Assembly (NCBI GenBank): GCA_019359125.1
Contig: JAHHHY010000001.1
Coordinates: 248,001-312,000 of the forward strand
Direction of reading: 5' to 3'
Source of the DNA: Pleurocapsa minor GSE-CHR-MK 17-07R
GTDB lineage: Bacteria > Chloroflexota > Anaerolineae > Aggregatilineales > Phototrophicaceae
DNA: 64,000 nucleotides
The position numbers and the translations under genes are program-made. Positions within the stretch are counted from its first letter, which is position 1. The number at the start of each line of letters is the position of its first letter. The notes below the pieces were generated by a model. That model was not told where the DNA came from, did not search any database, and saw nothing but the letters and a program-made list of their open reading frames with translations. Positions 15,415 to 17,925 of this stretch are shown here, in pieces.

Positions 15415-17322
15415 CTACAGCAGTGCAGATTGGCCAGAGCGCAGCGTGTCATCAGTACTGCCGCTGTGGGATTCAAGCTGGCGCATGGCGTAGGCAGCCA
15501 GCAGGAAAGACGCTCGTCGTGCCCCGTGAGGCAGGGTGTCCCACAGCGCGGCACGCAGGGCCGTAAATGCCAGGCTGAGGAAATATTCGCCCCATTCCTG
15601 CCGGTCCGCCAGCATGCCTGAGACCACGCTGCGCACGGCTCCAATCGGCTGTAATTCCAGGTCCACTGGGGGCTGTTTGTCGGCCGGACTCAACGATGCG
15701 ATACGCTCCACAACGCTCAATGCATCCGCCCATGTGCTGCCAGATTTGGGGCTGATCTGCTGATTGAGCAGGCTCACCTCCAGGCACGCCCAGTCAAACA
15801 GGCTGTGCCCTGTGCGCGCCTGGGCAAAATCGATCAGGAAGGCGGTGCTGCGTCGCCCCACCATGATGTTGCCCGCGTGCATGTCGCCATGAATCTTGCA
15901 CATGGTGCCGCGAATCGTGCGGTCGAGCAGCGCATCATAGGCCAGCAGCGGATTAGGCAACTGCATGCCATTGGCCAGTGCCCCGATAGTGGGCGCTTCC
16001 AGCTTGAATTCTGGCGAGAGCTGCACGATCGACATACGCATCATTTCGTCTCGCGTGCGCCAGATGCTTCCGGTCAGCCGCTCGACGACTTCTCCGCGGA
16101 AATGGGCATCCTGGGCCAGATTCACGCCGCTGATCTCGATCTTGTAGGCGCGTTTGCCCGATTCAGACCCGCGCCCATTCGATACCATAACAGTCGACTG
16201 GTCACGGCTGACGCGGTGCACAGTGAAGCCTTCGACATGCACGACTGAACCGAAATCGAGCGCGCGCACCGAGCCGCGTCGAATCGGATCGCGCAGCGTC
16301 ATCACGACTTTGTCGCTGGCGTCGCTGGTTTCCAGCGTCAGCAGCGGGGGCAGTAGCCAGTCATATTCCGTCCACACCTGAAAGCGGTATGGGCGCGTCT
16401 GCATCCACCACGTCTTGCCGAATGACGGGAATAATTCGCCCTGAATCCAGATGCCCAGTTCATCGGGCGGCATTGTCGCCAGCGTGCTGGCCAGGTCGCG
16501 CGGCTCGCCGTCATCGCCCACGATAAACGTATATTTCAGGCCGGCCAGGTCGCTGCCGTCCAGCGTCGCCGGCTTATCTTCCAGGCGGGCGGTCTGCTGG
16601 GGCAGCGTCACGCGGATCTGGCTGTCATAGCGCTGCGCCTCGTCGAGGATCTTGTCGGCATGGTCCAGCTTGACCACCACCGCAGCGTCTTTCATACCCT
16701 CGGTGTCCGTCGGCGTGACGACCAGCACGATGGCAGAGGTGAAGCCGCCCGTGAGCTGGCGCTCGATGGTGATGCGCTGCGATCCATGAAACAGCTTGCG
16801 CAGGATGCGATAATGCGGGTCCTGCAAGGGCGTGATGACCTCGTAGTGCGGCCCGTAGTCGATGTGCAGTGCGGGTGCAGAGATGACGGAAGCTGTCGTT
16901 CTGGGGGGCAGCTGCTCCAGCGTTGCTAGCGCCTCGCGCGTGATGCCAAAATGGCCAAGCACGCGAATCGGGATGCTGTCGTTTTCCTCGAAAATGGCTT
17001 CCAGCAGCTCTTTTTCGCCAATTTCCTTTTTGCCGGCGCTCAGCGCGATATCGTTGGCGATGCCCAGCACAGTCTCGGCACGTGGGGTATAGGGAACGCC
17101 GGTGAAAGTGCGCTGAGAGGTGCCTTTGCCGGTGCGCCGGCGTATCGCGTCGATGACGTATTCCACAGGCAGTCCGTGCATTTCGATCAGGCGTGCGGCC
17201 AGCCCGCTGCCCAGTTCCAGCATGCCGATGAACAGGTGCTCCACGCCGATGAAGTAATGCTTCATGCGGAAGCTTTCCTGTCGGGCGCTGATCTGAATGT
17301 CTTTCAAGGTGAGGATGCTCAT
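15415..17322 (-). CDS. Clp-N domain fused to a kinase/phosphotransferase-like domain
   Basis: A 635-residue cytoplasmic protein. Residues 1-140 form a double Clp N-terminal repeat (FRMKHYFIGVEHLFIGMLE, and again around GEKELLEAIF), the adaptor and substrate-binding module of ClpA/ClpC, but no AAA+ ATPase follows. From about 170 on it resembles a protein-kinase or aminoglycoside-phosphotransferase fold: glycine loop LTGGFTSA (190-197), candidate lysine in VVVKL (218), catalytic loop HGDMHAGN (478-485) and metal motif LIDFA (496-500). Roughly 320-430 looks like a beta-rich insert in the kinase core. It resembles the kinase-like ternary complex-associated domains described in NTP-dependent conflict systems, though I cannot run a profile to confirm. 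It starts 3 bp after the stop of an FHA gene, so the two form one operon. Confidence 0.7.
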   Translation of the reverse strand: MSILTLKDIQISARQESFRMKHYFIGVEHLFIGMLELGSGLAARLIEMHGLPVEYVIDAIRRRTGKGTSQRTFTGVPYTPRAETVLGIANDIALSAGKKEIGEKELLEAIFEENDSIPIRVLGHFGITREALATLEQLPPRTTASVISAPALHIDYGPHYEVITPLQDPHYRILRKLFHGSQRITIERQLTGGFTSAIVLVVTPTDTEGMKDAAVVVKLDHADKILDEAQRYDSQIRVTLPQQTARLEDKPATLDGSDLAGLKYTFIVGDDGEPRDLASTLATMPPDELGIWIQGELFPSFGKTWWMQTRPYRFQVWTEYDWLLPPLLTLETSDASDKVVMTLRDPIRRGSVRALDFGSVVHVEGFTVHRVSRDQSTVMVSNGRGSESGKRAYKIEISGVNLAQDAHFRGEVVERLTGSIWRTRDEMMRMSIVQLSPEFKLEAPTIGALANGMQLPNPLLAYDALLDRTIRGTMCKIHGDMHAGNIMVGRRSTAFLIDFAQARTGHSLFDWACLEVSLLNQQISPKSGSTWADALSVVERIASLSPADKQPPVDLELQPIGAVRSVVSGMLADRQEWGEYFLSLAFTALRAALWDTLPHGARRASFLLAAYAMRQLESHSGSTDDTLRSGQSALL

Positions 17323-17325
17323 GCT

Positions 17326-17709
17326 TTACTCGCTCGACTGCAGGCGAAACCAGGTGCGACCCACGCGAAATAACTGACCGATGCCCAGCGGCACGGTCCC
17401 GCTGACGCGCACATCGTCGTCGCGGCCGTTCTCGATGTAGGTGCCATTTTTGCTGTCGCAGTCTTTCAGCGTCCAGGCCGTGCCATCATGGATGATCTGG
17501 GCATGATCGCGTGACGCAAAGCTGTCATAGCGCAGCCACACGGCATTTTCTTCCCGCCGCCCCAGGCCAAGGATCCATTTTCCGTTTTCGGTCTGACCGT
17601 CTGTGTCTGTGGACAATACGAGCAGCTTGCCGTCCTCGATGCTGCTCATAAACATGATTGCGATGGAGTATTCCATAGGCTCAAAAATCCGCGCGCTGCG
17701 CCCGATCAT
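17326..17709 (-). CDS. FHA domain protein
   Basis: A 127-residue protein that is almost entirely one forkhead-associated domain. The phosphothreonine-binding signature is intact: LGRREEN at 48-54, SRDHA at 66-70 and DSKNGTY at 85-91. FHA domains bind pThr peptides. The next gene in the operon encodes a kinase-like protein, so this could be its reader or substrate adaptor; that is inference. A -10 hexamer TATACT lies exactly 7 nt before the ATG, so the mRNA is probably leaderless. Confidence 0.85.
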   Translation of the reverse strand: MIGRSARIFEPMEYSIAIMFMSSIEDGKLLVLSTDTDGQTENGKWILGLGRREENAVWLRYDSFASRDHAQIIHDGTAWTLKDCDSKNGTYIENGRDDDVRVSGTVPLGIGQLFRVGRTWFRLQSSE

Positions 17710-17820: not shown

Positions 17821-17925
17821 ACTCTTATCAAGAGCGGTGGAGGGATCGGCCCTACGAAACCGCGGCAACCCCTGATGCGTCGGGAAGGTGCCAACTCCGG
17901 CAGAGATGTCTGACAGATGAGATGA
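17821..17925 (+). promoter_or_regulatory. SAM-I (S-box) riboswitch aptamer
   Basis: The S-box core is intact: CTTATCAAGAG, then GGTGGAGGGA, GGCCCTACGAAACC, CGGCAACC and a closing GATGAGAT. P1 forms between 17822-17829 and 17917-17924. It senses S-adenosylmethionine. A terminator follows at 17962-17991, so high SAM should stop transcription before metB. A further 7-bp hairpin ACCTTGA/TCAAGGT lies between aptamer and terminator. Confidence 0.95.

Follow-up and report, generated by a model that had tools for sequence, protein, structure and literature searches.

A conserved FHA and Clp_N-TCAD9 kinase-like gene pair in one Chloroflexota order, a possible phospho-signalling unit with Clp-type docking input

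Introduction

The locus described here raises the question of what a kinase-like protein with the docking domain of a Clp ATPase, encoded directly beside a predicted phosphothreonine reader, may do in a bacterium. Both genes lie in a window of 64,000 nucleotides (nt) from Pleurocapsa minor GSE-CHR-MK 17-07R (contig JAHHHY010000001.1, positions 248,001 to 312,000), whose genome apparently belongs to the order Aggregatilineales of the Chloroflexota. One gene encodes an FHA protein of 127 amino acids (aa), the other a 635-aa protein in which a double Clp_N domain is fused to a kinase-like region of the TCAD9 family. The ClpC-type N-domain of Clp ATPases docks clients and adaptors, and proteolysis directed by phosphorylation is known in bacteria mainly from phosphoarginine and ClpC. 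A preliminary description of this DNA had proposed an undescribed signalling or conflict system. Our analysis bears out a conserved, signalling-like two-gene unit, and we tentatively read it, with slightly less than even confidence, as a dedicated two-protein FHA/kinase phospho-signalling pair with Clp-type docking input that forms part of the ordinary chromosome in one order of Chloroflexota and is passed on vertically.

Domain architecture and conserved residues

Both open reading frames (ORFs) of the preliminary description were confirmed on the minus strand, with the FHA gene upstream of the 635-aa gene and a gap of 3 bp between them. A Pfam scan assigned the 127-aa protein to FHA (45.4 bits, cut-off 20.7) and found in the 635-aa protein Clp_N in two stretches (44.2 bits, cut-off 20.7), TCAD9 (PF19974) at residues 183-590 (111.1 bits, cut-off 40) and APH (PF01636) at residues 459-514 (29.6 bits, cut-off 23.2). 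In line with the preliminary description, the Pfam matches of this protein included no AAA+ family, and the succession of Clp_N and AAA+ modules by which ClpC/Hsp100 proteins are recognized is therefore missing; a McsB-type kinase domain was likewise not among these matches. PADLOC models returned 0 families for either protein at E <= 1. The features are as follows.

17326..17709, minus strand: FHA protein gene, 127 aa (ORF and Pfam)
15415..17322, minus strand: Clp_N-TCAD9 kinase gene, 635 aa (ORF, Pfam, alignment of homologues)
16918..17322, minus strand: double Clp_N domain, residues 1-135 (two Pfam Clp_N stretches, Foldseek to N-terminal domains of ClpC, alignment)
16867..16917, minus strand: variable linker, residues 136-152 (no column conserved to >=90% in 83 sequences)
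15553..16776, minus strand: TCAD9 kinase-like region, residues 183-590 (PF19974, 111.1 bits)
16669..16671, minus strand: N-lobe lysine K218 (83/83)
16042..16317, minus strand: OB-like beta insert within the kinase region, residues ~336-427 (VIA, low-confidence model)
15868..15891, minus strand: catalytic loop HGDMHAGN, residues 478-485 (H478 83/83, D480 82/83, N485 83/83)
15826..15837, minus strand: LIDF motif, residues 496-499 (D498 83/83)
15418..15477, minus strand: variable C-terminal tail, residues 616-635 (motif count over 83 homologues)

Conservation was counted in 83 of the 87 aligned rows, leaving out L154 (the same as L089) and L112, L124 and L042, whose C-termini are broken or cut. 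In the TCAD9 region K218, E228, H478, N485 and D498 were present in all 83 homologues and D480 in 82. The N-lobe lysine, the HxDxxxxN loop and the metal-site aspartate are presumably the catalytic residues of an APH-type kinase, and the region carries this residue pattern and scores above the cut-off of PF01636. Thus, the region is predicted from its residues to be an apparently competent APH-type kinase. A pseudokinase was considered and is unlikely in view of this conservation (82-83 of 83 homologues).

The 127-aa protein is predicted to be a bare phosphothreonine reader. G50, R51, S66, R67, H69 and N88, which we take to be the phosphothreonine-contact residues of FHA domains, were identical in 70 of 70 FHA proteins. 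The protein scored below the NCBIfam cut-offs of OdhI (22 of 200 bits) and FhaB (55.8 of 125 bits). Its true start may be an ATG at ~17676 (residue 12), because several homologous FHA ORFs begin near that residue.

For residues 1-135 sequence search, alignment and Foldseek all gave a grouping with the N-domains of ClpC, in agreement with the double Clp-N domain noted before. E28 is glutamate in 83/83 homologues and E103 in 81/83; they align with E32 and E106, the phosphoarginine-site glutamates of ClpC in passages of PMC12583610, and also lie within the general fold motif of Clp_N.

The preliminary description had further proposed a kinase fold with a beta-rich insert. The family profiles TCAD9 and APH agree with a kinase, while the structure models are too weak to settle the fold: AlphaFold reached a confidence score (pLDDT) of 65 with 10 sequences and of 64 for the kinase region alone on 9 sequences. 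The best VIA match of this low-confidence kinase model was maltokinase (Z 7.9, root mean square deviation 4.1, 177 aligned residues), and further matches were choline, homoserine and glucosamine kinases (Z ~5 to 7.9 overall); none of them reaches Z 8, and for lower values the tool cautions that an arrangement may be due to chance. The insert could be placed at residues ~336-427 and looks OB-like in the low-confidence model, with VIA matches to OB folds at Z 4.5-6.7, again lower than Z 8.

Linkage of the two genes

The genome-neighbourhood survey showed that homologues of the kinase gene do stand beside FHA genes, as had been expected for a system. At 9 of 9 homologous loci, from metagenome-assembled genomes titled Anaerolineae, Anaerolinea, Aggregatilineales or Chloroflexi and with 46-53% identity, the FHA gene was located directly upstream; at one of them (L016) the kinase gene is frameshifted. 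A search of the order yielded 91 places with a strong match, of which 86 were examined and the contig fragments in G004, G010, G076, G080 and G134 were left out. An FHA homologue lay just upstream on the same strand in 70 of the 86 loci, and the coordinates in G010 and G080 place an FHA match directly upstream there as well. The spacing, taken between the domain ends, was 18-52 nt in 67 loci and 100, 221 and 550 nt in the other three. With this pairing at both sets of loci, a chance neighbourhood of the two genes was rejected. At locus L077 an extra 166-aa ORF is found between the FHA and kinase genes.

Within f1, the family of the window genome, 54 of 98 genomes contain both genes, 42 neither, one only the kinase gene and one only the FHA gene, which amounts to joint presence or absence in 96 genomes. 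The kinase-only genome, G076, is 63% complete and has its match on a contig fragment. G066 and G068 retain both genes ~20 kb apart on one contig, and their FHA gene has stayed close to thrC. G047 is the only f1 genome with two Clp_N-TCAD9 genes and the one with two FHA matches. In G037, the FHA-only genome (L134, C205, 4637-5420), an FHA gene and a stand-alone Clp_N gene of 142 aa lie between metB-like and leuB genes and the kinase domain is gone; this one genome suggests that FHA and Clp_N are the core of the unit.

Distribution and inheritance of the fusion

A survey of the class matched 18 of 298 genomes at 1e-30. Twelve of these belong to the order and match from residue 1-7 onwards; the six outside match only from residue 134. 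Furthermore, 36 loci outside the order that match the TCAD9 family were screened with the Clp_N and FHA profiles, which gave nothing at E <= 0.01; most of these loci comprised only ~1.5 kb of flanking sequence. In the surveys made, the Clp_N-TCAD9 fusion was thus found only in the order of the window genome.

In a Clp_N tree of 39 rows, rooted at the midpoint, the TCAD9-fused domains form one side of a branch with support 98/94. The sampled rows are grouped by family, firmly for f1, f2, f3 and f4 and weakly for f5 (90/75) and f7 (81/92). Because the fusion is confined to the order in the surveys and the tree follows the families, it looks like an order-level invention that was inherited vertically; a mobile gene was rejected on the same grouping by family.

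Related FHA genes, Clp machinery and TCAD9 in other settings

FHA genes related to that of the window recur in association with Clp_N or ClpC-like proteins. Runs of a ClpC-like gene, a kinase-TPR gene and an FHA gene were found at L137, L138, L140, L150 and L153, of which only L138 was domain-scanned; at L139 such a run is split by other genes, and the FHA genes of L137 and L139 were placed from search coordinates. At L136 (G034 C316, 1228-6910, minus strand) a serine/threonine protein kinase (STPK, Hanks kinase) with a C-terminal Clp_N domain, an FHA match, a zinc-ribbon kinase-like protein and a 924-aa zinc-ribbon protein follow each other. The window genome itself contains a ClpC-like ATPase gene followed 15 nt on by a gene for a 1395-aa STPK-TPR protein (L155, G000 C15, 6243-12911, plus strand), with no FHA match beside this operon; in relatives from other families FHA is the third gene. 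The ClpC-like ATPase keeps the LGF loop, as does canonical ClpC, and the genome also has a second, canonical-looking ClpC and one ClpP. A link of the pair to Clp ATPases is thus supported indirectly, by FHA relatives that stand in ClpC-like/STPK-TPR operons or next to an STPK-Clp_N fusion.

TCAD9 exceeded its cut-off in 20 of 400 genomes of a phylum sample. Outside the order it occurs in other Chloroflexota as receiver-TCAD9-caspase (L058, the receiver match being just below cut-off), STPK-TCAD9 (L158, L159, L161), STPK-TCAD9-TIR-AAA_35 (L163) and TCAD9-EAD7 (L160). It therefore looks like a reusable signalling module.

One copy in G047 is an ATPase with a KGGVGR motif fused to Clp_N-TCAD9 (989 aa), encoded beside a TIR-domain gene (L154, G047 C24, 121-4327, minus strand). 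In the Clp_N tree this fusion falls inside f1 as a derived duplicate, and the copy was apparently drawn into a conflict-type system.

Genomic setting

In the window the pair is flanked by leuB, with a citramalate synthase gene beyond it, and by a cystathionine gamma-synthase family gene, thrC and thrB. The leuB and gamma-synthase genes are on the strand opposite to the pair. At 8 of the 70 FHA-linked loci none of these five genes was present in the examined stretch, which is short at two of them (L105 and L122); hence the pair also exists elsewhere, and only in a minority has it been carried away from the ancestral amino-acid-biosynthesis locus.

The divergent gap adjoining the FHA gene contains an S-adenosylmethionine (SAM) riboswitch (RF00162, 90 bits, 17822-17923, plus strand) that precedes the cystathionine gamma-synthase family gene. 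In f2 (L102-L112) all 11 loci have a homologue of a three-GAF histidine kinase, in L106 directly upstream of the FHA gene. Inspection by eye of f7 loci showed the Clp_N-TCAD9 gene before a penicillin-binding-protein-like gene (L129, L132 and L133) and a MinD/ParA-like gene ahead of it (L129 and L132). A clpC gene adjoins the locus, in convergent orientation, at L130, one of 20 loci listed.

Discussion

If the two proteins act as a dedicated signalling pair, the Clp_N domain would sense or dock a Clp-type client or adaptor. The TCAD9 kinase, or the Ser/Thr kinase of the related ClpC-like/STPK-TPR operon, would phosphorylate a threonine, either in the variable C-terminal tail or in a client, and the FHA protein would bind the phosphorylated threonine and so assemble or switch a complex. 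The domain layout, the conserved catalytic and reader residues, the linkage throughout the order, the shared presence and absence in f1 and the repeated association of this FHA group with Clp_N or ClpC-like proteins are observed; the activity of the kinase, its substrate, phosphorylation of the tail, binding by the FHA protein and a connection to proteolysis are inferred. A more specific version, in which the Clp_N-TCAD9 kinase and the FHA protein form a writer-reader adaptor, a phosphothreonine counterpart of McsB-ClpC marking that would feed or gate a dedicated ClpC-like/ClpP machine with the STPK-TPR/ClpC-like operon, appears doubtful to us.

A candidate phosphothreonine dock, to be taken as a lead only, is a DxT[D/E]-hydrophobic motif that follows the final conserved helix in 36 of 83 homologues. 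It occurs in 30 of 69 FHA-linked homologues (shuffles 1.6, maximum 6 over 500 rounds) and in 6 of 14 unlinked ones (shuffles 0.3, maximum 2), in related sequences from which it had itself been picked by eye.

Several observations weigh against a dedicated pair. The tail motif suffers from this selection on the same data and from the relatedness of the sequences, is equally common without an adjacent FHA gene and is missing from the tail of the window protein itself. The weak model of the kinase region points in the same direction: Foldseek with this model alone (pLDDT 64) returned no match at E <= 0.001. Small molecules are frequent substrates of APH-type HGDxxxxN kinases. For a related kinase group small-molecule action is also suggested in passages of PMC7159879. 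Sixteen of the 86 loci have no adjacent FHA gene, including L132, where the upstream sequence extends over only 322 nt. In 12 of these 16 genomes an FHA homologue is found elsewhere at E <= 1e-12, and in the other four (G136-G139) none was detected genome-wide at 1e-12, so the kinase can exist without FHA. The Fisher value of 1.9e-25 for the co-occurrence in f1 is overstated because a single deletion can remove both neighbours and the genomes share ancestry. Finally, at least one of the five flanking amino-acid genes is present at 62 of 70 FHA-linked loci versus 4 of 16 unlinked loci; because adjacency goes with the amino-acid locus, shared locus ancestry explains much of the FHA linkage.

Three other explanations were weighed, and the one ranked first among them, though unlikely, is a Clp adaptor: the Clp_N-TCAD9 or the FHA protein would recruit phosphorylated clients to ClpC/ClpP as a threonine counterpart of McsB marking. 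The ClpC-type double N-domain, the E32/E106-equivalent glutamates (83/83 and 81/83), the related FHA genes within ClpC-like operons and, in the window genome, the LGF loop of the ClpC-like ATPase and the presence of ClpP are consistent with it. However, an isolated Clp_N domain without an AAA+ ring could equally bind adaptors of ClpC or act as its competitor, the two glutamates also belong to the motif conserved in the fold, all five tested neighbours are metabolic genes and clpC adjoins only at L130 among the 20 listed loci. The McsB-ClpC phosphoarginine system shares the double Clp_N domain and the equivalent glutamates with our protein (passages of PMC12583610); the pair differs from it in having no AAA+ match, no McsB-type kinase domain and a reader for threonine. 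The metabolic neighbours lead to the reading ranked next and likewise improbable, that the substrate of the APH-type kinase is a small molecule and that amino-acid metabolism is tuned by the pair. This would fit the flanking genes of the window and of most FHA-linked loci (62/70) and the small-molecule kinases among the best VIA matches of the low-confidence model (maltokinase, choline, homoserine and glucosamine kinases). PF01636 phosphotransferases of the APH/choline-kinase type share the HGDxxxxN and IDF motifs and, by VIA with the weak model, resemble the protein in maltokinase and choline kinase; unlike them it has an OB-like insert and the Clp_N fusion. The small FHA proteins GarA/OdhI are also reported to regulate central metabolism in Actinobacteria. 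Like GarA/OdhI and FhaB, the FHA protein of the window is small and stands alone, yet it stays below the OdhI and FhaB cut-offs. Moreover, eight FHA-linked loci (two of them, L105 and L122, short stretches) lack all five amino-acid genes, leuB and the gamma-synthase gene run opposite to the pair, and the SAM riboswitch on the plus strand precedes the gamma-synthase gene and is not ahead of the pair.

The conflict system of the preliminary description did not hold as the leading reading, because the pair is inherited vertically, is mostly syntenic with amino-acid-biosynthesis genes and has no PADLOC match; the metabolic nature of the five tested neighbour genes also speaks against it. We regard a conflict or defence module, as formed by TCAD9 proteins of vWA-MoxR-VMAP type systems, as very improbable for the paired copy. 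TCAD9 has been linked to these ternary systems (passages of PMC10910872), and its fusions to TIR and AAA_35 (L163), caspase (L058) and EAD7 (L160) in other Chloroflexota as well as the derived G047 copy beside a TIR gene would agree with such a role. In the TCAD9 relatives that were examined the accompanying domains are receiver, STPK, TIR, caspase or EAD7, whereas a Clp_N input was seen only in the order of the window genome. The five tested neighbours include no vWA, MoxR or VMAP gene; beyond them the window was not scanned for vWA or MoxR. Kaur et al. (PMC7159879) count kinases of the APH type and FHA domains among the parts of NTP-dependent conflict systems, and for one subsystem also ClpN repeats fused to vWA proteins; the passages of that source hold no ClpN-kinase fusion with an FHA partner, and the pair described here is inherited vertically and lies beside metabolic genes. 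The search of the open-licence PMC literature returned no Clp_N-TCAD9 protein and no pair of FHA and Clp_N-kinase. "Undescribed" therefore stands for the fusion and for the pair and falls for the kinase domain, since TCAD9 is a known Pfam family; within these searches new are the Clp_N-TCAD9 fusion and its FHA pairing, while every single domain was already known.

For the dedicated signalling pair a partial parallel is the threonine phosphorylation pathway of the type VI secretion system (PpkA-Fha-ClpV), whose kinase, however, is of the Ser/Thr protein kinase type and whose Clp component is a complete ATPase. A kinase and an FHA protein act in one pathway there (PMC3953482).

The genome that hosts the pair has 26 family matches for Hanks-type protein kinases and 22 for FHA proteins. 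For TCAD9, a family named after conflict systems, it provides a stable setting at a metabolic locus for an activity assay. Since it joins a predicted kinase to a docking domain of the ClpC type and to a predicted reader of phosphothreonine, the pair makes it directly testable whether a Clp machine can be steered by threonine phosphorylation.

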